Part shown: one piece after another, positions 1,452-56,053 of the stretch
How positions within the stretch are numbered: the stretch's first letter is position 1
Layout of the letters: each line of letters begins with the position of its first letter
IMG/VR virus record: IMGVR_UViG_3300032242_001941
Span: 47,612 to 111,611 of that record
Origin: a virus
Strand: one strand, 5' to 3'
DNA length: 64,000 bases
The notes under the pieces: model-generated
The model's input: the letters and a program-made list of their open reading frames with translations, nothing else
Database searches by the model: none
Told to the model about the DNA's origin: nothing
Translations under genes and position numbers: made by a program

Positions 1452-3092
<1,641 letters not shown>

Positions 3093-3662: not shown

Positions 3663-3679
3663 ACAATAAAGGATTGGAT

Positions 3680-3988
3680 ATGTCACAAGCAGGAACTGTA
3701 ACAAAAACACAAATTAATCAAGGTCTTGCCGAACCTCCTATGTTTAAAATTATCTATCTTAATGATAATGCCACACCAATGGAATTTGTAATTGATACGT
3801 TAATGGATTCATTTAATTATAGTTCAGAAACAGCTGAAAAAATTACCATGGACATTCACGAAGCCGGAAGTGCTGTGGTTGCTGTATTGCCTTATGAAAT
3901 TGCCGAACAAAAAGGTATTGAAGTTACAGTGCAAGCCCGAAACAACAACTATCCTTTACAAGTCAAGCTAGAACCCGAAACAATTTAA
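3680..3988 (+). CDS. clpS: ClpS adaptor protein
   Basis: The 102-residue product matches ClpS: FKIIYLND, TPMEFV, the helical region ending MDIHEAGSAVV, VLPYEIAEQK and the C-terminal NYPLQVKLEPE. ClpS brings N-end-rule substrates to ClpA and alters ClpAP choice. The N-end pocket normally uses LNDD, TPME and a later His; here the first patch reads LNDN, so one acidic residue is replaced by Asn, while Met of TPME and the His are kept. ATG 3680 is chosen over TTG 3674 because AAAGGA fits it better. No ClpA is seen here. Confidence 0.92.
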   Translation: MSQAGTVTKTQINQGLAEPPMFKIIYLNDNATPMEFVIDTLMDSFNYSSETAEKITMDIHEAGSAVVAVLPYEIAEQKGIEVTVQARNNNYPLQVKLEPETI

Positions 3989-6391: not shown

Positions 6392-6883
6392 ATGAAAAAA
6401 ATAATAATAATAACTCTCTTAGCTTCTGCGCCTGCGTTTGTCACGGCTGCAGAACTACAACACTATTTTAGTAGCCCGGCCTTTAGCGGCGTTGGATACA
6501 GTAGCCATGTCTTGACTTTACAACAGCTAGAAACTCAACAAAAAGAAAAAAATAAATTGGCCGCAGATGCTATTGCAGCCAAAGCAGCCGCAGATGCTGC
6601 AAATACTCCACAGGCTAGATTTTTAGCCAACATTGAAAGTAGAGTCTATGCTCAACTAGCCAAACAAATTACCGATAGTTTGTTTGGTACAGACGGTGTG
6701 CCTAGTTGTAAAGCAGTAAATCCTTACAGTCAGTGCGGATCTGTAAACATAGCGGGCAATGATATCACTTGGCGCCTGGGCGACCCAGCAAACGCCAGCG
6801 AAAAAGGCATGTTAGTAATCAACATTGCTGGTGCCACCGGCAACGTTCAAATGATGGTGCCATCTGGAACCTTTGCTTTTTAA
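6392..6883 (+). CDS. csgF: Curli assembly protein CsgF
   Basis: The 163-residue protein has a cleavable signal peptide (residues 1 to about 20, ending VTAAE). The mature N-terminus reads LQHYFSSPAFSG, equivalent to the F-x-NPxFGG segment of CsgF that plugs the CsgG pore. A coiled Ala-rich insert follows, then a conserved C-terminal beta region (DITWRLGD, MLVINIAG). CsgF anchors and nucleates curli at the cell surface. It is nine bases upstream of csgG. The sequence is divergent, but order and motifs support the call. csgF/csgG pairs are known from some marine T4-like phages (recalled, not checked). Confidence 0.82.
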   Translation: MKKIIIITLLASAPAFVTAAELQHYFSSPAFSGVGYSSHVLTLQQLETQQKEKNKLAADAIAAKAAADAANTPQARFLANIESRVYAQLAKQITDSLFGTDGVPSCKAVNPYSQCGSVNIAGNDITWRLGDPANASEKGMLVINIAGATGNVQMMVPSGTFAF

Positions 6884-6892
6884 GAAAAATAT

Positions 6893-7708
6893 ATGAAACA
6901 TACCGTAATTTCCTTGCTTGCAATTGCTTTATTAGGTGGATGTGCCATTGGCAGTGGTATCCGCGAACAGCTGACAAACAAGCAGTTTGACGAACCAGTG
7001 ATAGAAAAAAGTATTGTATTAGCACAGCCAAAAAATCAACTAGCACCACCGGCAGATGGACCTATTGCTGTGGCTGTGTACGGATTCCAAGATAAAACAG
7101 GGCAACGCAAAAGTCAACTTGCTGTGGCCAGTTTAAGCAGTGCTGTAACACAAGGCGGCGAAAGTTACTTGATTAAAGCCTTACAAGATGTAGGCGATGG
7201 CCGCTGGTTCACTGTGGTAGAAAGAGTTGGGCTAGACAACCTAATCAAAGAACGACAAATGATTCGCCAGGGTCGCGAACAGTATCAAGGACGTGATGCT
7301 AAACCGTTACCGCCAATGGTATTTGCCGGAATGATTGTGGAAGGTGCTATTGTGGGCTATGATTCAAATACTCTTACAGGTGGCGCCGGTATGCGTATCT
7401 TTGGTATTGGCGGCCAAACACAGTATCAAAGTGATACAGTCACGATTAGTTTGAGAACAGTCAGTGTTCTTACTGGAGAAGTATTGACCACAGTTACAGT
7501 TACAAAAACTGTGTTGAGTTACATGGATAAATTTACAGTATTGAGATTTATCAATGACGGAACTAACTCCTTAGAATCAGAAATAGGAGGTAGTATAAAC
7601 GAAAGTATTAACCGAGCAACAAGCGCAGCCATACAAGCCGCAGTGGTTGATACGATTCGTGAAGGTGCTCGTAAAGGACACTGGAATTTTAAAGAAGTAA
7701 AAAAATAA
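6893..7708 (+). CDS. csgG: Curli export channel lipoprotein CsgG
   Basis: At 271 residues it is close to the E. coli length. A lipoprotein signal with lipobox LLGGC places the lipidated Cys near residue 17. Conserved segments include VAVYGFQDKTGQ, ESYLIKALQD, RWFTVVERVGLDNLIKER, FAGMIVEGAIVGYDSN, FGIGGQTQYQ and TKTVLSY, covering the periplasmic and beta-barrel-forming regions. CsgG forms a nonameric outer-membrane pore for curlin export. The neighbours csgF and a curlin-repeat protein make a self-contained export set on a phage genome. Confidence 0.95.
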   Translation: MKHTVISLLAIALLGGCAIGSGIREQLTNKQFDEPVIEKSIVLAQPKNQLAPPADGPIAVAVYGFQDKTGQRKSQLAVASLSSAVTQGGESYLIKALQDVGDGRWFTVVERVGLDNLIKERQMIRQGREQYQGRDAKPLPPMVFAGMIVEGAIVGYDSNTLTGGAGMRIFGIGGQTQYQSDTVTISLRTVSVLTGEVLTTVTVTKTVLSYMDKFTVLRFINDGTNSLESEIGGSINESINRATSAAIQAAVVDTIREGARKGHWNFKEVKK

Positions 7709-7758
7709 CAATAAAAAATAGGAGCTTAGATTGGGGATAACCCAACTTTGAACAAACA

Positions 7759-8556
7759 ATGAAAACAAACAAATTAAATACAGCCTATACAATATTTGCT
7801 GTGTTGGCATTTGTTTCATTAAATGCAGCCGCACAAAATGCGGCCACTGGACCTAACAAGGTTTACCTGGAACAGATTGGTAGCACTAATACCATCACAG
7901 TTCAACAGGTTGGCGGCACTAACAATGTTGGCGGCACCGGCGGCAATGTAACAGTAGATACCAATGGCGTAACTACTTTTACACCCGATGCCCCTGGCAG
8001 TACTAACTATGCTACAATCACGGGTGCTAACAATGTGGTTGGACTTAGTCAGACTGGTAGTAACAACACGGCTCAGTACAATATCACTGGCAGTAACAAT
8101 ACCTATAACAGTACTGTGGCTGGCAATAACAATCAAACTCGTTTGATCATGGGTGGTGCCAATGCCACAGCCAATTACAATACTGTAACAGAAACAGTTA
8201 CTGGCAGTAATAACTTGATATTACAAAACGTTCAAGGCAGTAATGTGGTCAGTGGTATTGGAATTGTTGGCAGTACCAACCAAGTGACTACTGATTTATT
8301 AAGTAACCGCGGAAGTTCTAATATACAAATCACTGGCAGTACCAACGTGATCAATGCTGAACAGACGGGCGGTGCTGGTGCCAATGGGCACATATTGATT
8401 AATAATGTGATAGGCGACTATAACAGTATTACCACCCAGCAACAGGGTTCTATTGATACAACAATCGATCTTAAGACCACAGGTAGTTTCAATACCGTCA
8501 CGGTACGGTCCAGCGACTCGGCCATTGTCAATTCAAGAACTGCTGTAGCAAGGTAA
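7759..8556 (+). CDS. Curlin-repeat secreted protein (CsgA/CsgB-like)
   Basis: A signal peptide (to about residue 25, ending NAAAQN) is followed by some 200 residues of Asn/Gly/Ser/Thr/Gln-rich repeats of about ten or eleven residues, such as LEQIGSTNTITVQQVGGTNN and TGSNN. This is the Q-x-G-x-x-N pattern of curlin repeats that stack into an amyloid beta-solenoid. It is the expected substrate of the CsgG/CsgF channel just upstream. Its start is preceded by a short hairpin (TTGGG/CCCAA), and AGGAG lies unusually far upstream. Whether it forms fibres on infected cells or is a virion component is unknown. Confidence 0.85.
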   Translation: MKTNKLNTAYTIFAVLAFVSLNAAAQNAATGPNKVYLEQIGSTNTITVQQVGGTNNVGGTGGNVTVDTNGVTTFTPDAPGSTNYATITGANNVVGLSQTGSNNTAQYNITGSNNTYNSTVAGNNNQTRLIMGGANATANYNTVTETVTGSNNLILQNVQGSNVVSGIGIVGSTNQVTTDLLSNRGSSNIQITGSTNVINAEQTGGAGANGHILINNVIGDYNSITTQQQGSIDTTIDLKTTGSFNTVTVRSSDSAIVNSRTAVAR

Positions 8557-8557
8557 T

Positions 8558-9658
8558 ATGCAGAAACTAATCACAGCCCTTTGCGTTATGGTTGTATGTA
8601 ACGCCTGGGCTGGCATTGGCACGGTTTCAGAACACAAAGGTACAGCCTGCGAGATCACACGAGACAAAAATAAATTATCTGGGCACAAAGATGCCATAGT
8701 TGAAAGTATGGACACATATACCACCGGTGCATGTGTCAGCAACATTACATTTAAAGATGACACAAAGGTTCGCATAACTGAGAACAGTCGCTTGCTTATT
8801 GATGATTTTGTATTTGATCCCAAGGCCAGCGATGCCGGCAAACTGGCTCTTAAAGTGAGCGCAGGCACTGTGCGCTATGCGTCGGGCCAGATTGCTAAAA
8901 ATAGTCCACAAAAAGTAAATATTCAAACGCCAACAGCCACAGTGGCAGTTCGTGGTACTGATTTTACCATGACCGTTGACGAAGCTGGACAAAGTCTGAT
9001 AATGTTAATACCTAGTTGTAAAGATATCAACGAAGTTAAACAATATGAATTAGAAGAGAATAGATGCAAAGTTGGACGTATCGAAGTAAGCACTCTTGCT
9101 GGGTCAGTGGTCTTAGACCAAGCATTTGAAGCAACCTATGTTATGAGTGCTCTAATGGCACCAACTCCACCTATTGTTGTCAACACTGTTGAAAGTAAAA
9201 TTAATAATAATCTTATTATTGTTAAACCTGTTGAAGTTCAACGAGCTATTAAAGAAGCAACAAAAACCAAACAAGAACAAGAACTTGACGACATCGAAGC
9301 CGACGCGGCTCGACGACTAGCACAGGCTGTGGCCAAATCCGCCGAAGCCATTGAGGAAGCTCGTGTTTCCAAGTTTGTTGACCTTGCCAAACGGTCTGGG
9401 TGTAATTCTGCTACCAGTGTCTGTGTGATATGGGATAGACCGTCTGAAACAGAAATGATCAGTCGTGGACGTGGTATTGCATTCCGCCTAACAGAAAATG
9501 AGCATTATGCCGAAGTCAAGACACTTGGGTATGTATCCAACACCACAATTAACATTACACATAATGATATGCCATCATCGATCACTATCGGCGATGGCTC
9601 TCCTGGTGGAACTATTGTAACTATTAAACAAAACAATGGAGTATTAAAGTCTAAGTAG
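8558..9658 (+). CDS. FecR-domain secreted protein
   Basis: The 366-residue protein starts with a signal peptide (to about residue 19). A FecR domain covers about residues 50-150 and includes DDTKVRITENSRLLID, LKVSAGTVRYASG and the hallmark TPTATVAVRGTDF. An Ala/Glu-rich coiled region follows around residues 225-275, then a C-terminal beta-rich part. FecR domains act in periplasmic signalling or surface assembly. It follows the curlin gene by one base and precedes a CHASE2 cyclase; FecR plus CHASE2-cyclase pairs are common in bacteria. The terminator at 9754 ends this operon. Confidence 0.85.
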   Translation: MQKLITALCVMVVCNAWAGIGTVSEHKGTACEITRDKNKLSGHKDAIVESMDTYTTGACVSNITFKDDTKVRITENSRLLIDDFVFDPKASDAGKLALKVSAGTVRYASGQIAKNSPQKVNIQTPTATVAVRGTDFTMTVDEAGQSLIMLIPSCKDINEVKQYELEENRCKVGRIEVSTLAGSVVLDQAFEATYVMSALMAPTPPIVVNTVESKINNNLIIVKPVEVQRAIKEATKTKQEQELDDIEADAARRLAQAVAKSAEAIEEARVSKFVDLAKRSGCNSATSVCVIWDRPSETEMISRGRGIAFRLTENEHYAEVKTLGYVSNTTINITHNDMPSSITIGDGSPGGTIVTIKQNNGVLKSK

Positions 9659-18087: not shown

Positions 18088-18094
18088 GTAATTG

Positions 18095-18805
18095 ATGTAC
18101 ATAATCTTATCAACCCTGGTAATGGTTCAACTTACTATAGCCTGTGTTACCTTATACCTACACCGTAGCCAAGCTCATAGAGGTGTAACATTCCACCCTG
18201 CGGTAGCACACGCCATGCGTTTTTGGTTATGGCTAACTACCGCTATGGTCACAGAAGAGTGGGTAGCAGTACACCGTAAGCACCATCAAAAGTCAGATCA
18301 GCCCGGTGATCCACATAGCCCACAAGTCCACGGCATTTGGACGGTGTTGTTTAAAGGCGTTTTCCTTTATAAACAAGCTGCTAAGGATCGTGTGATGATT
18401 GCACAACTAAGCACAGGCACACCGGACGACTGGATTGAGCGCCATTTATACAAACGGTATAACACGTTAGGTATCGTCCTAATGCTTATTATAGATCTAT
18501 GCTTGTTTGGTCTATGGGGTTGGTTAGTGTGGGGCATTCAAATGCTTTGGATTCCCTTATGGGCGGCTGGAGTTATTAACGGCCTTAGTCATTGGTGGGG
18601 CTATCGCAACACAGATACCAAAGATACATCACGCAACTTATGGCCATTGGCTGTATGGATTGGCGGTGAGGAACTGCACAACAATCATCACGCAGATGGC
18701 GCCAATGCTAAATTCAAACAAAAATGGTGGGAATTAGACATTGGTTGGGTCTATATTTGCATACTGCGTTACTTGGGTTTGGCAAAATTAAGAGAGAAAA
18801 GCTAG
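18095..18805 (+). CDS. Fatty-acid desaturase, acyl-lipid/acyl-CoA type
   Basis: The 236-residue membrane protein carries the three His boxes of the desaturase superfamily: HRSQAHR near residue 23, HRKHH near 60 and GEELHNNHH near 195. Hydrophobic segments lie between. It inserts double bonds into acyl chains and raises membrane fluidity. It is short relative to eukaryotic enzymes but similar to bacterial and cyanophage ones. ATG 18095 is used; TTG 18092 is an alternative one codon upstream. Confidence 0.9.
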   Translation: MYIILSTLVMVQLTIACVTLYLHRSQAHRGVTFHPAVAHAMRFWLWLTTAMVTEEWVAVHRKHHQKSDQPGDPHSPQVHGIWTVLFKGVFLYKQAAKDRVMIAQLSTGTPDDWIERHLYKRYNTLGIVLMLIIDLCLFGLWGWLVWGIQMLWIPLWAAGVINGLSHWWGYRNTDTKDTSRNLWPLAVWIGGEELHNNHHADGANAKFKQKWWELDIGWVYICILRYLGLAKLREKS

Positions 18806-18927: not shown

Positions 18928-19173
18928 ATGGAATTATTTAATACATTTAAAGACGCATTAAACCCAGCTAAGTTTATTGATCAAGCTGAAAAGAACACCA
19001 CGGCTGTCTTGTCTTATATACAGCCCAAAGAACTCAGCAACACTTTGATTGACTTAACATCCGATACCACTGAGTTTGTTCGCGCACAATTGGCTGCAGT
19101 TGAGTCAATTGCAACTATTACCAAAGAGCACACTGAAGAATTTATCAAAAGTTTTTCTAAATCAGCTAAGTAA
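18928..19173 (+). CDS. Phasin-like small protein
   Basis: The 81-residue helical protein reads FNTFKDALNPAKFIDQAEKN followed by heptad-like segments such as FVRAQLAAVESIATIT, resembling the amphipathic helices of PhaP-type phasins. Phasins coat storage granules or membranes. ATG 18928 has TAGGAG nine bases upstream. The match is by pattern only. Confidence 0.45.
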   Translation: MELFNTFKDALNPAKFIDQAEKNTTAVLSYIQPKELSNTLIDLTSDTTEFVRAQLAAVESIATITKEHTEEFIKSFSKSAK

Positions 19174-43357: not shown

Positions 43358-43474
43358 ATTGTTATTAAAAAAATCAATAAGCGTTATTAAAATTATTATT
43401 GAAAAAATTAATAAAAACCGTTGATCTTATTGTTAAATACTATTACAATACTATTTTACTTTAAGGAGATGTCA

Positions 43475-43924
43475 ATGAGTATTACTATCAAAAATCTTGA
43501 ATCGGCATTGGCTGGTGAGTCACAAGCTCACATCAAGTATCGTTATTTCGCAAAGATTGCACGTGAAGAAGGCTACGAAGATGTTGCCCGTCATTTTGAG
43601 TACACAGCAGATCAAGAAATTCTACACGCATGGGGACATTTGGAATTGCTTATCGGCAAGCCTACAACCAAAGAGTGTTTGGAAAAAGCCATTGCAGGTG
43701 AAACTGAAGAGTTCACACACATGTATCCAACCATGCTTGCGGAAGCAGTCGAAGAAGGTAATCAACAGGCTGCTATCGAAGCCAAGCACCAGATTGCGGA
43801 ATCTAAAGAACATGCTGAACAATTTGCCGCAGTGTTGGCCAAAGCTGAAAAACGTTTTGCGGCACTACAACGAGTAGAGAAGCGTCATGCCGAATCATAT
43901 CAACGAGTCATGGAGGCACTATAA
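43475..43924 (+). CDS. Rubrerythrin-family diiron protein without rubredoxin domain
   Basis: 150 residues. GESQAHIKY, ADQEILHAWGH, AGETEEFTHMYPTM and EAKHQIAESKEHAEQF provide the Glu/His ligands of a rubrerythrin four-helix bundle that reduces peroxide. The usual C-terminal rubredoxin domain is absent but is encoded separately by the next, overlapping gene. ATG 43475 with AAGGAG six bases upstream is preferred over 43469 and 43421. The AT-rich interval 43358-43460 shows no gene. Confidence 0.9.
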   Translation: MSITIKNLESALAGESQAHIKYRYFAKIAREEGYEDVARHFEYTADQEILHAWGHLELLIGKPTTKECLEKAIAGETEEFTHMYPTMLAEAVEEGNQQAAIEAKHQIAESKEHAEQFAAVLAKAEKRFAALQRVEKRHAESYQRVMEAL

Positions 43925-44052
43925 TGGAACACGTATGCGTAATCTGTGGTCACGTCCACAATGAAGAATTAGAAGGTAAATGGGAGGATCTACCAGAAGA
44001 CTTTCCTTGTCCTGAGTGTGGCGGATTCAAGCAAGATTATATTGAGATGTAA
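43924..44052 (+). CDS. Stand-alone rubredoxin-like protein
   Basis: 42 residues with two CxxC knuckles: CVICGH (C5, C8) and PCPECGG (C29, C32), plus LPEDFPCP, the rubredoxin signature. It overlaps the rubrerythrin stop by one base (TAATG), so the two parts of a normal rubrerythrin are made as separate chains from one message. It would pass electrons to the diiron centre. Confidence 0.85.
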   Translation: MEHVCVICGHVHNEELEGKWEDLPEDFPCPECGGFKQDYIEM

Positions 44053-44131
44053 CTAAACAGTCACACTAGCGATCTTAAATAACTCAACCGGACACAAAGA
44101 TAGAGTGTCTCTGGAGCTCGTAACCAGAACC

Positions 44132-44156
44132 AAAAGGACTCAGGTCCTTTTTCTTT
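44132..44156 (+). terminator. Rho-independent terminator after rubrerythrin/rubredoxin
   Basis: AAAAGGAC/GTCCTTTT with loop TCAG, then TCTTT. Upstream hairpins GACAC/GTGTC (44091-44109) and CTGG/CCAG (44111-44127) suggest a structured 3' end or a short RNA between 44053 and 44131. Confidence 0.8.
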
Positions 44157-44224: not shown

Positions 44225-44383
44225 ATGAAACAAAAGAAATTAATTTCTAAATTGTATCAGGCTTGTCTAGACCACGATACTAAAAAGGTTCAAGAACTCA
44301 AGAAAAAAGAGTTTGCTAAAATCTTTAAACACAAGGCCCAAGGCAAATCATTTGATACCAAATGGCATGTAGTTACGGTGTAA
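44225..44383 (+). CDS. 52-residue basic protein
   Basis: ATG 44225 follows [29 protein letters not shown] then a Lys-rich helix ([18 protein letters not shown]). Strong ribosome site. Possibly nucleic-acid binding. A hairpin GTTACGG/CCGTAAC (44372-44395) covers its stop codon. Confidence 0.65.
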
Positions 44384-44428
44384 CAAATCCGTAACAAGTT
44401 TTCTCTGGCATTTTGGTTAAATATTGCT

Positions 44429-45253
44429 ATGCCAGAGAAAACTTACCGTTCAATCTTTATCTCGGATGTTCATCTTGGCACTCGCGACTGCAAGGCCGAA
44501 GCCTTAAATAATTTTCTCAAACACAACACCTGCGAAACCCTATATCTAGTAGGCGACATAATCGACGCATGGAAAATTCAACAAAATAAATGGCGCTGGA
44601 AACAAAGCCATACCAATGTTGTACGTAGAATACTAGGACATGCCAAACGTGGCACTAGAGTAATCTATGTAGCCGGCAACCATGATGAATTCCTCCGCCC
44701 GCTTATACCCTACGGCATGGGCTTTGGCGCAGTAGAAATTGTAAATCAAACAGAACACATAGGTCTAGATGGCAAGCACTATCTGGTCACTCACGGTGAC
44801 TTGTTTGATGGCATTACTAGACTGGCCCCTTGGCTGAGTTTTTTAGGAGATAAACTTTATGACTTTGTTCTCGACCTTAACAGTCGCTTTAATTGGATAC
44901 GTCACCGTATGGGTTTTGGTTATTGGAGTTTGTCTAAGTATCTCAAGCATAAAGTTAAGAAAGCCGCTGACTTTATGTTTCAGTTTGAGCTTAATCTTGC
45001 TCGCTATTGTCACAAGCGCGGTTATGATGGCGTGATCTGTGGACATATACATCATGCAGAAATCAAAGAAATAGATGGTATCATTTATATGAATGATGGT
45101 GATTGGGTTGAGTCGATGACTGCCCTGGTTGAAAATTACAATGGATCCTGGGCGATAGTTACCTGGACCAAGGAGCACGACGATGTGGATACTAATACTG
45201 TTAGCAGTGAACATAAACAATCCCGCCGACGTCCCGGGAAGAATAAGCCTTGA
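44429..45253 (+). CDS. plcP: PlcP/LpxH-like metallophosphoesterase, putative phospholipase C
   Basis: 274 residues with the metal motifs of the LpxH/PlcP branch: SDVHLGTRD near residue 12, LVGDIIDAW, VAGNHDEFL, VTHGDLFDG and CGHIHHAEI. LpxH enzymes are about 240 residues; PlcP proteins, which cut phosphatidyl lipids to diacylglycerol during phosphate starvation, are nearer this length and are encoded next to the glycosyltransferase Agt, as here. The basic C-terminal tail (SRRRPGKNKP) overlaps a hidden small gene. Lipid A processing (LpxH) is the alternative. Confidence 0.72.
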   Translation: MPEKTYRSIFISDVHLGTRDCKAEALNNFLKHNTCETLYLVGDIIDAWKIQQNKWRWKQSHTNVVRRILGHAKRGTRVIYVAGNHDEFLRPLIPYGMGFGAVEIVNQTEHIGLDGKHYLVTHGDLFDGITRLAPWLSFLGDKLYDFVLDLNSRFNWIRHRMGFGYWSLSKYLKHKVKKAADFMFQFELNLARYCHKRGYDGVICGHIHHAEIKEIDGIIYMNDGDWVESMTALVENYNGSWAIVTWTKEHDDVDTNTVSSEHKQSRRRPGKNKP

Positions 45254-45356
45254 GTTTGCCACAGAACGAGCGTGTGAGTCAGCTCGTGAGTCAGTTAAAT
45301 ACTGGCTCAAGTTTGAAGGGTTTCGGGTCCAATCACAATGTCAAAAACAATCTTAG
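45183..45356 (+). CDS. Hidden 57-residue gene spanning the plcP-agt junction
   Basis: In the +1 frame relative to plcP, ATG 45183 has AAGGAG (45170-45175) seven bases upstream and opens 57 codons ending at TAG 45354-45356. The product starts with a hydrophobic stretch MWILILLAVNINN, then FATERACESARESVKYWLKF and a Cys near the end. The composition is protein-like and ribosome site and spacing are near ideal. It overlaps plcP by 71 bases and agt by 19. It may be a small membrane protein; no function is known. Confidence 0.65.
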   Translation: MWILILLAVNINNPADVPGRISLEFATERACESARESVKYWLKFEGFRVQSQCQKQS

Positions 45357-46345
45357 TAGTTACCGATAATGTTGCCGATCAAGTCAACGGAGTGGTCACA
45401 ACTTTCAAAAACTTGGAAGATCAGGCTAGCCTGGCTGGCGATCGTATTGTTTATATTGATCCCGGGCAGTTCCCTCATTTTGATTGCCCTGGTTATCCTG
45501 AAGTTAAAATCTGCTGGCCACACGGCATTAGCAAGAAGATTAAGGCGCTACAGCCGGATTATATTCACATCGCCACAGAAGGCCCTGTAGGTCTATTTGC
45601 CCGGTGGTGGTGTGAGCGTAATGGGATTCCTTACAACACTAGCTACCACACTGATTTTGCCAAGTTCTTAAAGAAAATGTATCACATACCCGAGTCCGTG
45701 ACTTGGTGGTATCTACGTTGGTTCCATAAGAACAGTCATCGTGTGCTAGTTACTACAGAAAGCATACGGCAAGACTTAGTGTCACGTGGATTTGCTAATC
45801 TGCGTGTATGGACTCGCGGTGTAGATAGGACTATTTTTAACGGCACACATCGTGGAGAAACTGTAGCTGGTCGTCCTATGCTATTGAGTGTAGGTCGTGT
45901 TAGTGTTGAAAAAGGCCTAGATGATTTTTGTCAATTAGATATTCCGGGTGCTACCAAAATTGTAGTTGGAGATGGTCCATATCGACGAGACTTAGAACGC
46001 AGGTACCCAGACATACATTTTGTAGGAGCCAAAAAAGGAACGCAATTAGCTCGTTACTATGCTCAGGCCGATGTGTTTGTTTTTCCTAGTCGGGCCGACA
46101 CCTTTGGAGTGGTCAATATTGAATCACTGGCTTGTGGAACTCCGGTAGCGGCCTACCCTGTGCCCGGACCTATAGATATTGTTGAACCCGGACTAACTGG
46201 ATTCCTTAACAACAATTTACGATTGGCAGTAGAGCAGTGTTTGACCTTAGACCGCGGCGCGGTAGAAGATGCCAGTTTGAAGTGGACTTGGGCAGAGTGT
46301 TGGCGTATATTTGAAGAAAACTTGATAGACTGTTCTGTAGCATAA
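45338..46345 (+). CDS. agt: GT4 glycosyltransferase, Agt/MgtA-like
   Basis: 335 residues with a GT-B layout: N-terminal NVADQVNGVVTTF, IATEGPVGLFARWW, YHTDFAKF, then MLLSVGRVSVEKGLDDF, VGDGPYRRDLE and DTFGVVNIESLACGTPVAAY of the nucleotide-sugar domain. This matches the alpha-monoglucosyl/mannosyl-diacylglycerol synthases. With PlcP it would rebuild glycolipids from the released diacylglycerol. The start has only a weak ribosome site and lies inside the hidden gene, so it is probably translated by coupling. Confidence 0.82.
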   Translation: MSKTILVVTDNVADQVNGVVTTFKNLEDQASLAGDRIVYIDPGQFPHFDCPGYPEVKICWPHGISKKIKALQPDYIHIATEGPVGLFARWWCERNGIPYNTSYHTDFAKFLKKMYHIPESVTWWYLRWFHKNSHRVLVTTESIRQDLVSRGFANLRVWTRGVDRTIFNGTHRGETVAGRPMLLSVGRVSVEKGLDDFCQLDIPGATKIVVGDGPYRRDLERRYPDIHFVGAKKGTQLARYYAQADVFVFPSRADTFGVVNIESLACGTPVAAYPVPGPIDIVEPGLTGFLNNNLRLAVEQCLTLDRGAVEDASLKWTWAECWRIFEENLIDCSVA

Positions 46346-46359
46346 AAACAACACATTTA

Positions 46360-46384
46360 AAGCCCCGTAAAAGGGGCTTTTTTG
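46360..46384 (+). terminator. Rho-independent terminator
   Basis: AAGCCCC/GGGGCTT with a six-base loop and TTTTTT. Nearly the same cassette, with an imperfect stem, is at 25368-25392. Confidence 0.9.
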
Positions 46385-53832: not shown

Positions 53833-54374
53833 GCGTCTTACGAGAAGTTACCTACGAGCGACACATGGCAGTAGAGAACCTGCCGTTTACACAGTATCTG
53901 CTAGGTGGCACAATTACCAAACCAGATTATGTTGTATATCTGTCAGAAATGCTTGCCATATACCAACACCTTGAACGCTTGGCCATTGAAGCTGGCCTGT
54001 TTGAAGGCATGGAGGAACTGCCAAGAGCACAACACATGCAAGCGGATCTTGCGGAACTTGCTCCAGATTATCAAGCAGAGTTGTTACCAAGCACACAGGA
54101 ATACTTGGCATATTTAGATCAGCTGGCACAGTCAGACCGCGCCGACCAATTGTTTGCTCATGTGTATGTACGACACATGGGTGATCTTTACGGTGGTAAA
54201 CTGATAGCTCGCGGAGTACCTGGTACCGGACGTTGGTACCAATTTGAAAATCGCAGTGATTTGGCTAAAAAGTTTAACGAGCGAATAACTTTAGATCTTG
54301 CTGACGAAGCCATTGTAGCATTTGACAATTACAATAATATTTTTCAGGACCTGTGGACTTGCATACATAATTGA
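53829..54374 (+). CDS. Heme oxygenase
   Basis: 181 residues, all-helical. H12 in [12 protein letters not shown] is the proximal heme ligand, and [20 protein letters not shown] near residue 111 is the distal helix with the GDLxGG motif. The enzyme opens heme to biliverdin, CO and Fe2+. Phage heme oxygenases are known from cyanophages and some pelagiphages. No bilin reductase is seen, so iron release or biliverdin itself may be the point. Confidence 0.9.
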
Positions 54375-56053
54375 TGCGATTTCATATCTTAGGATTACCT
54401 CACACAGTCAGCAGTAAAGAATACAACGCCTGTGCTTACACACAAAAAGTAGTCAAATTTGGTCGAATGATGCGGGCCCGCGGGCACGAAATTATTCACT
54501 ACGGTCATGAAGATAGTGATCTCGAATGTACTGAACATGTTACAGTAACTACTAATGCTGACTTGGAAAAAGCCTATGGCAACTACGATTGGCGCAAGAA
54601 CTTCTACAAGTTTGACATGGGCGATCACGCTTATCAAACATTTTTTAAAAATGCCATCCGCGAAGTAGGCCTACGCAAACAAAAGAACGACTTTATCTTA
54701 CCATTTTGGGGTAGTGGAGTACGTCCTGTGTGCGATGCGCATCCTGACTTGATCTGTGTAGAGCCCGGAATTGGATATGCCGGCGGTCACTGGGCCCGTT
54801 GGAAAATCTTTGAAAGTTATGCTATCTATCATGCCTATCTTGGCCTAGGCGCTGTTGGAACTTGTCAACAAGATTGGTACGATGCTGTTATTCCCAACTA
54901 CTTTGATCCTGACGACTTTGTGTTTAATGACAAAAAAGACGACTACTTCCTGTTCCTGGGTCGTGTGTATTCGGGCAAGGGCATCGACATAGCAATACAG
55001 ACTACTGAAAAGATTGGAGCTCGTTTAATAGTAGCCGGACAAAATCCTGAAAACATTCAATTCCCGCCCCACGTGGAATTTGTAGGTTATGCTGACGTTG
55101 AAAAACGTAAACAGTTAATGAGTAATGCCAAAGCGGCATTTGTAGCTAGCCAATACTTAGAACCATTCGGTGGTGTACAGATTGAAATGTTATTTTCAGG
55201 AACTCCTACTATTACTACAGACTGGGGTAGTTTTACTGAAAACAATATACACGGTGTTACTGGTTATCGTTGCCGTACATTTGATCAATTTGTTTGGGCT
55301 GCAAAGAATATAGATCGCATTGATCCACAAAATTGCCGTACCTGGGCGGAAAACTTTACCCTTGACCGAGTAGCACCCATGTACGAAGAATACTTTCAAA
55401 GTGTGTTAAATGTCTACACTGGCAACGGCTGGTATGAACCCACACCCGGACGCAGTGATCTAGCCTGGTTAAAAAAGACCTACCCTACCCGACCGGAACG
55501 TATCAATTTTGATCACATTGCTGATGAAGAAAAGCCCTGGGCAAATAGATTAGCCTTATGGATTAAAACCGAGCTAGATCCTAAATCGGTGCTGGACATT
55601 GGATGCGGACCCGGAATTTATGTAGATAGCTTGCGTGATCGCGGAGTCGATGCTCGCGGAATTGATGTTGATGATCGTGTACACGGCAAAGAGCATTTAG
55701 AATATCTAAGCCTATTTGACATTACAGATCAACGGGCCGACACTGTTATTTGTATGGAAGTTGCGGAACATATAGATCCTGCTCAGGAAGATCTAGTAGT
55801 TAAACAGGTGGTTGGTACTGTAGACCGTACACTCATATGGACTGCAGCCGCTGTTGGACAAGGTGGTATTGGGCACGTCAACTGCAAAGATAAACAAGAG
55901 TGGGCAGATAAAATTACTGCCGCTGGGCTAGTGAGAAATCTAGAAAAAGAAGCAGAATTAATTGAATATGCCAACCGCGGATACCATATGGGTTGGTTTG
56001 TTAACAATCTTTTGTACTTTGAACGCCCTATTAATTCTGTAAAATCTCTCTAA
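54374..56053 (+). CDS. GT4 glycosyltransferase fused to SAM methyltransferase
   Basis: 559 residues. The N-terminal 370 residues are a GT-B enzyme with [19 protein letters not shown] and [20 protein letters not shown] (E-x7-E). From about residue 395 a class I methyltransferase follows, with [21 protein letters not shown] and CMEVAEHID. The fusion would add and methylate a sugar on DNA, lipid, polysaccharide or virion protein. ATG 54374 overlaps the heme oxygenase stop. Confidence 0.85.

Follow-up and report, generated by a model that had tools for sequence, protein, structure and literature searches.

A T4-related large phage probably carries a plcP-agt lipid-remodeling operon that is expressed under phosphate starvation. 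This reading rests on the observed gene content, the protein families, the active-site residues, purifying selection on both genes, and a promoter type that is linked to phosphate genes (Table 1). The DNA analyzed here (hereafter "the window") is a stretch of 64,000 nucleotides, corresponding to bases 47612-111611 of a virus record of 111,611 bp (IMGVR_UViG_3300032242_001941). The original prediction placed a 274-residue metallophosphoesterase followed by a GT4 enzyme at 44429-46345 of the window, and both ORFs lie exactly there, on the same strand.

Table 1. Features of the plcP-agt region and the distant desaturase gene (window coordinates).
Feature	Position	Strand	Details
DesA-type fatty acid desaturase gene	18092..18805	+	237 aa; PF00487, E 3e-14
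Second Pho-box-type repeat, TGTAACTAAACAGTCAC	44048..44064	+	TAAATA 11 bp downstream, at 44076; reads into the RNA element
Structured RNA element	44081..44130	+	Two hairpins and a loop-loop pair; then a terminator-like hairpin to ~44155
Pho-box-type tandem repeat, TGTAAC-N5-CGTAAC	44379..44395	+	50 bp upstream of plcP
TAAATA promoter element	44418..44423	+	22 bp downstream of the Pho box and just ahead of the plcP ATG; no Shine-Dalgarno
plcP-like gene	44429..45253	+	274 aa; calcineurin-type phosphoesterase
agt-like GT4 gene	45338..46345	+	335 aa; 84 bp past plcP, same strand
Intrinsic terminator (probable)	46359..46383	+	Hairpin then T-run in the sequence, directly past the GT4 gene

The record encodes the viral hallmarks of a T4-related large phage (T4-type terminase, UvsX, DnaB-type helicase, ssDNA-binding protein, and ribonucleotide reductase). 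The nearest kin of the terminase are Pseudomonas jumbo phages such as PA5oct (52%), and the 111.6-kb record may represent only part of a larger genome. A search of the whole record, with the reservation that it may be a fragment, found neither PhoH nor pstS/PstS. A GroEL gene is present at window positions 1461-3092, with GroES-like and ClpS-like ORFs close by (1110-1451 and 3674-3988, read by eye), and clpX is apparently located on the record just ahead of the window start; these genes appear, partly from by-eye reading, to form a phage chaperone and protease set. Short, secreted-looking ORFs at 6392-9658 resemble curli genes, which are known from pelagimyophages (PMC7029224); this is a likeness only, without a family search.

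The product of the plcP-like gene matches the Metallophos and Metallophos_2 families of Pfam (E 1e-10 and 3e-11, respectively). The di-metal site is complete (D13, H15, D43, N84, H85, H122, H206, and H208, invariant across 24 aligned phage and bacterial proteins), and the gene is under strong purifying selection (pairwise dN/dS ~0.05-0.09). The calcineurin-like fold is common to this protein and LpxH (UDP-2,3-diacylglucosamine hydrolase), and the phosphoesterase might instead be LpxH, with the gene pair serving lipid A or LPS synthesis. Database entries for its relatives bear the name UDP-2,3-diacylglucosamine hydrolase or diphosphatase, viral-gene surveys list lpxH (PMC9611531, PMC10653327), and the top PDB matches of an AlphaFold model of the window protein (pLDDT 80.5) are LpxH structures, although the match of this predicted structure shows a common fold and not a common substrate. 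Against this, the window protein scores only 39.4 bits with the LpxH model TIGR01854 (cut-off 190), and it carries the motif GNHD, as do nearly all PlcPs, whereas all six LpxH proteins compared have GNRD. In a maximum-likelihood tree of 50 proteins it is placed among phage and proteobacterial PlcPs, and LpxH, which acts on a lipid A substrate, forms a separate branch (100/100). Those PlcPs include proteins of P. aeruginosa (54.7% identity) and S. meliloti (43.8%), which we take, from gene order and locus tags, to be PA3219 and SMc00171. Bacteria with such PlcPs also have a distinct, true LpxH: a separate LpxH was identified in 7 of 10 genomes with PlcP relatives (190-298 bits; six above the cut-off and one just below it, at 190.1), and the PlcP-type genes in these genomes reach at most 47 bits with the same model. 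Score, motif, and tree position contradict an LpxH identity and, together with a promoter of phosphate type, leave a role of the pair in lipid A or LPS synthesis with only a very slight chance of being correct. On this comparative evidence, the window phosphoesterase is assigned to the PlcP type and not to LpxH, and hydrolysis of phospholipids is inferred.

For the downstream gene, Pfam identifies GT4 domains in the encoded protein (E 6e-20 to 9e-19), and pairwise dN/dS values of 0.09-0.17 indicate strong purifying selection. The protein falls in the Agt clade of GT4 (91/86), within a phage branch (100/100), and the Agt proteins with which it groups are those encoded directly behind bacterial plcP, including that of P. 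aeruginosa. In the SAR11 enzyme GTcp, 13 residues are important for activity (12 by mutation, plus the catalytic Asp), among them the His104-Asp256 catalytic dyad as well as two acceptor residues, R163 and W320 (PMC8231724). All 13 are present in the window GT4 (G18, G82, G85, H104, R160, R187, K192, D254, T255, F256, G257, E262, and W318), the positions having been matched via the published numbering and motifs, without the SAR11 sequence itself; the motifs of the window protein are GRVSVEKG and FPSRADTFG. Across 37 phage GT4 proteins, 12 of these residues are invariant or nearly so, and the 13th, the catalytic Asp, is Glu in 21. An Agt-type assignment is thus supported for the window GT4, and the synthesis of glucosyl- or glucuronosyl-diacylglycerol is inferred from it. 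Clustering of the phosphoesterase with LpxH would have counted against the original prediction, and the tree does not show it; the GT4, for its part, groups with Agt and retains each catalytic residue tested. Elsewhere in the window, a 560-aa protein in which GT4 and methyltransferase domains are fused (54371-56053) lies far outside the Agt clade.

In the established layout of Pho boxes, direct repeats recur every 11 bp close to a -10 element. The tandem repeat ahead of the window plcP has one mismatch to strict TGTMAY-N5-TGTMAY, and a third, weaker half-site (TGTAGT) is located 11 bp further upstream, at 44368. Upstream of phage plcP genes the layout is TGTMAY-N5-TGTMAY (11-bp period), with the half-site variants TGTCAT, TGTCAC, TGTAAC, and TGTAAT, followed by TAAATA after 11 or 21-22 bp. 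With up to one mismatch, this pattern precedes 39 of 54 distinct phage plcPs vs. 13 of the 466 other ORFs that these loci contain; when the spacer is swapped to other lengths from 2 to 9, only one to three of the 54 plcPs match. Most of the exact copies elsewhere in these loci are ahead of pstS. The pattern was derived from plcP upstream sequences and then tested by protein-blind DNA scans of all viral contigs. Among the matches listed for a gap of 10-12 bp, some of them on contigs already included above, 86 hits were testable, of which 34 were followed by plcP and 25 by pstS; with a gap of 21-22 bp plus an ATG, plcP was the next gene in 72 of 80. When both scans are pooled, plcP accounts for 106 of 166 and pstS for 25, among the matches listed, and the other genes behind the pattern include a Na/Pi cotransporter. 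Similar repeats precede 17 of 77 bacterial plcPs, vs. 5 of 770 shuffles. Shine-Dalgarno-like sequences are mostly absent from plcP (6 of 80 with one vs. 268 of 542 other ORFs), and because they are rare upstream of this gene, the plcP transcript may be leaderless.

The layout criterion for a Pho regulon, namely direct repeats of 11-bp period near a -10 element and common to other phosphate genes, is met, and the repeat is what looks like a host phosphate-starvation switch; PhoB is inferred as the regulator, and there are no PhoB binding data for the box at 44379. The repeat might alternatively be the site of a phage regulator or part of a late promoter, with expression independent of phosphate. 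TAAATA also resembles a T4-type late promoter, at which host PhoB action is not expected, and the E. coli Pho-box consensus (CTGTCAT-N4-CTGTCAT) is only weakly enriched upstream and matched only in part (a Pho-box consensus is quoted in PMC8528852); moreover, a study of cyanophages considered Pho-box predictions in phage genomes unreliable without binding assays (PMC10976474). These alternatives are difficult to reconcile with direct repeats of exactly 11 bp, whose Pho-type halves are separated from TAAATA by 11 or 21-22 bp, or with plcP and pstS constituting most of the genes recovered by the blind scan (among the matches listed), and the repeats at bacterial plcPs likewise count against it. 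We regard phosphate-independent expression as unlikely, albeit not negligible, and prefer a Pho-type promoter. A recurrent 320-aa membrane protein is also encoded behind the same Pho-box-type promoter (L331:2238-3236, L346:233-1201, L471:164-1120, and L439:11961-12929); no family match was obtained for it, and its ND...GT motif faintly recalls Pit phosphate transporters.

The second Pho-box-type promoter of the window reads into a structured RNA element of ~45 nt, for which covariation is strong (95% of cells paired; two-sided changes in 7 of 11 pairs) and no Rfam match was found. Copies are also located at L005:5649, L009:5906, L015:2484 and 3617, L044:5848, and L079:7622, among others, in gaps beside plcP, pstS, glycosyltransferase genes, and desaturases, and, in other phages, between regA-like and hsp20-like genes. 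In an unbiased scan, 28 of 79 copies were not adjacent to the module, being mostly ahead of small heat-shock genes, and the element was dropped as a phosphate-specific part of the mechanism on this ground; its occurrence is general among phages, and its role is unknown. Within 44048-44155, the box promoter reads into the RNA element and the terminator-like hairpin without an ORF; this arrangement has counterparts in loci L006 and L012 and is a candidate for a phosphate-responsive small RNA. Further upstream, the window encodes a rubrerythrin-like protein (43421-43924), whose gene is followed by a 42-aa ORF with paired cysteines that resembles rubredoxin (43924-44052); rubrerythrin is also close to plcP in several relatives.

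PlcP relatives are present on at least 598 stretches of viral contigs, and the best 80 of these are all at least 80% identical to the window PlcP. Directly behind plcP, 37 of the 80 encode a GT4 Agt and 36 a GT2, and none encodes both; in the rest, the contig edge is right behind plcP (four) or neither glycosyltransferase is present (three). The GT2 (~238 aa) is unrelated to Agt and occupies the same slot; it has a GT-A fold, a Glycos_transf_2 match, and a weaker GT21 match, and the fold is generic and does not name the acceptor. That a single phosphoesterase is paired with either of two glycosyltransferases suggests that a sugar replaces phosphate on a lipid. Because half of the close relatives use GT2 rather than Agt, the end lipid is not necessarily glucosyl-diacylglycerol across the group. 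A contig filed under the bacterial genome bin Muricauda sp. TMED12 (L148) looks like phage, and encodes plcP, along with a GT4 that falls inside the phage clade, next to a PhoH-like ORF.

Glycosyltransferases that alter the host surface are frequent in phages (discussed for pelagimyophages in PMC7029224), and the GT2 resembles polysaccharide and teichoic-acid GT2 enzymes. It is therefore conceivable that the glycosyltransferase modifies surface glycans (LPS) against superinfection, that the phosphoesterase only supplies or modifies the lipid acceptor, and that phosphorus economy is incidental. We give this little credence: the GT4 has the Agt acceptor residues (equivalents of R163 and W320) and its place in the Agt clade, the gene pairing mirrors bacterial plcP-agt, and the promoter type is common to pstS.

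Additional phosphate and lipid genes accompany plcP in some relatives. A pstS gene is present in the loci of 10 of the 80 relatives, directly upstream of plcP in eight (among loci with enough DNA), and the two pstS products checked both score above the NCBI equivalog cut-off. Permuted, phage-encoded tmRNA genes are located upstream of pstS in some relatives (L069:497-885, L056:4386-4823, and L044:4374-4640); one phage tmRNA scores best as a betaproteobacterial tmRNA, a hint as to the host. In 20 of the 80 relatives, a DesA-type desaturase gene lies no more than 6 kb from plcP. In the window, a desaturase and a phasin-like gene at 18-19 kb had been predicted to fit a wider lipid program. The desaturase proved real (395 bits for the DesA family; cut-off 400), and it is possibly a distant part of the same program, located 26 kb from plcP; the phasin lacks support, the "phasin-like" ORF (18928-19173) matching neither a Pfam family (E ≤ 0.01) nor an NCBIfam family (E ≤ 0.001). 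The desaturases near plcP, as well as the altered envelope properties that glycolipids confer in P. aeruginosa (PMC8528852), would suit membrane remodeling with a physical aim (curvature, fluidity, lysis timing, or resistance to other phages or cationic peptides), with phosphate gain secondary. This is a minor possibility that we retain, but the desaturase is absent from most plcP loci (within the flanking DNA examined), and the Pho-type promoter, being common to pstS and also ahead of a Na/Pi cotransporter, indicates phosphorus.

As had been predicted, plcP and agt are adjacent in bacteria: an Agt-type GT4 is encoded directly downstream of the PlcP relative in about half of 80 named bacterial loci, and in one of the 80 plcP is followed by btaA- and btaB-like genes (our own interpretation of the sequences). 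In P. aeruginosa and marine bacteria, mutants and expression have established that the plcP-agt pair makes glycolipids under phosphate stress (PMC8528852, PMC4796936). The phage pair comprises the same two enzyme families as the bacterial operon (SAR11 HTCC7211 and P. aeruginosa PA3219-PA3218; plcP of Phaeobacter MED193), and is alike in gene order, essential residues, and Pho-box-type promoter (PMC4796936, PMC8528852, PMC8231724). Unlike the bacterial operon, it resides on a T4-like phage, its plcP mostly lacks a Shine-Dalgarno sequence, half of the phage relatives have GT2 in place of Agt, and some link plcP to phage pstS and desaturase genes. Cyanophage pstS under host PhoB (P-SSM2, S-PM2) likewise represents phage genes on the host phosphate-stress switch (PMC10976474), and in the plcP phages pstS bears the same promoter type as plcP. 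Nevertheless, cyanophage pstS serves external phosphate uptake, whereas the target of the plcP module would be the host's own membrane phospholipid, and the phage box differs in sequence from the cyanobacterial Pho-box consensus quoted in the same study (PMC10976474). Among cultured T4-like phages, Pelagibacter phage Mosig and Synechococcus phage S-SRM01 encode PlcP relatives (48.5% and 36.5% identity, respectively) annotated as "UDP-2,3-diacylglucosamine hydrolase." The Mosig gene adjoins a phosphate ABC transporter gene; unlike in the window, no Agt is annotated alongside either relative, and no repeat of the window type was found upstream of them.

In the proposed mechanism, PlcP, as a phospholipase C in the cytoplasm, would cleave host phospholipids into diacylglycerol and a phosphorylated head group, and phosphate could be recovered from the latter. 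The GT4 would cap the diacylglycerol with glucose or glucuronate, thereby preserving the bilayer and preventing a buildup of free diacylglycerol. Through the Pho-box promoter, host PhoB would turn on plcP-agt in phosphate-poor cells, together with pstS where the phage has it, and the freed phosphate would go to phage DNA. The regulation by PhoB, the enzyme activities and substrates, the formation of a glycolipid, and any gain for the phage are all inferred; there are no activity, binding, or lipid data for any phage member. Because the host is unknown, it cannot be told whether it has its own plcP-agt and a PhoB that recognizes the box. The phosphate-stripping lipid remodeling put forward in the original prediction is strengthened by the promoter common to plcP and pstS, by pstS adjoining plcP, and by nearby DesA genes; glucosyl-diacylglycerol as the product is not assured group-wide, given GT2, and both activity and lipid products remain inferences.

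More broadly, a "membrane mining" module under Pho control may be present in hundreds of large phages in viral metagenomes, its phosphoesterase constant and its lipid glycosyltransferase exchangeable (GT4 Agt or GT2), sometimes with pstS and a desaturase, such that the membrane phospholipids of phosphate-starved hosts would fund phage DNA; with GT2, the product would be an undescribed glycolipid or another phosphorus-free lipid. We consider the case for this wider proposal evenly balanced. The enzymes, the bacterial operon, and host-PhoB control of phage genes are already known; the exchangeable GT2 and the promoter common to pstS and plcP are new as far as our searches show. No literature pairing plcP with auxiliary metabolic genes was found, although subscription journals were mostly outside the search and a prior description is not excluded; a survey of phage phosphorus-acquisition genes leaves plcP unmentioned (PMC10987575). 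Some viral "lpxH" calls (PMC9611531, PMC10653327) might be misnamed plcP. The reading is directly testable: the enzymes are small, a lipidomics assay based on heterologous expression is available, and the promoter yields a prediction of when the genes are on. Known phage phosphorus genes serve phosphate uptake or mobilization; if the reading is true, the recycling of phosphorus from host phospholipids by a phage module, with replacement of the lipid, would constitute an internal phosphorus source during infection in nutrient-poor waters.
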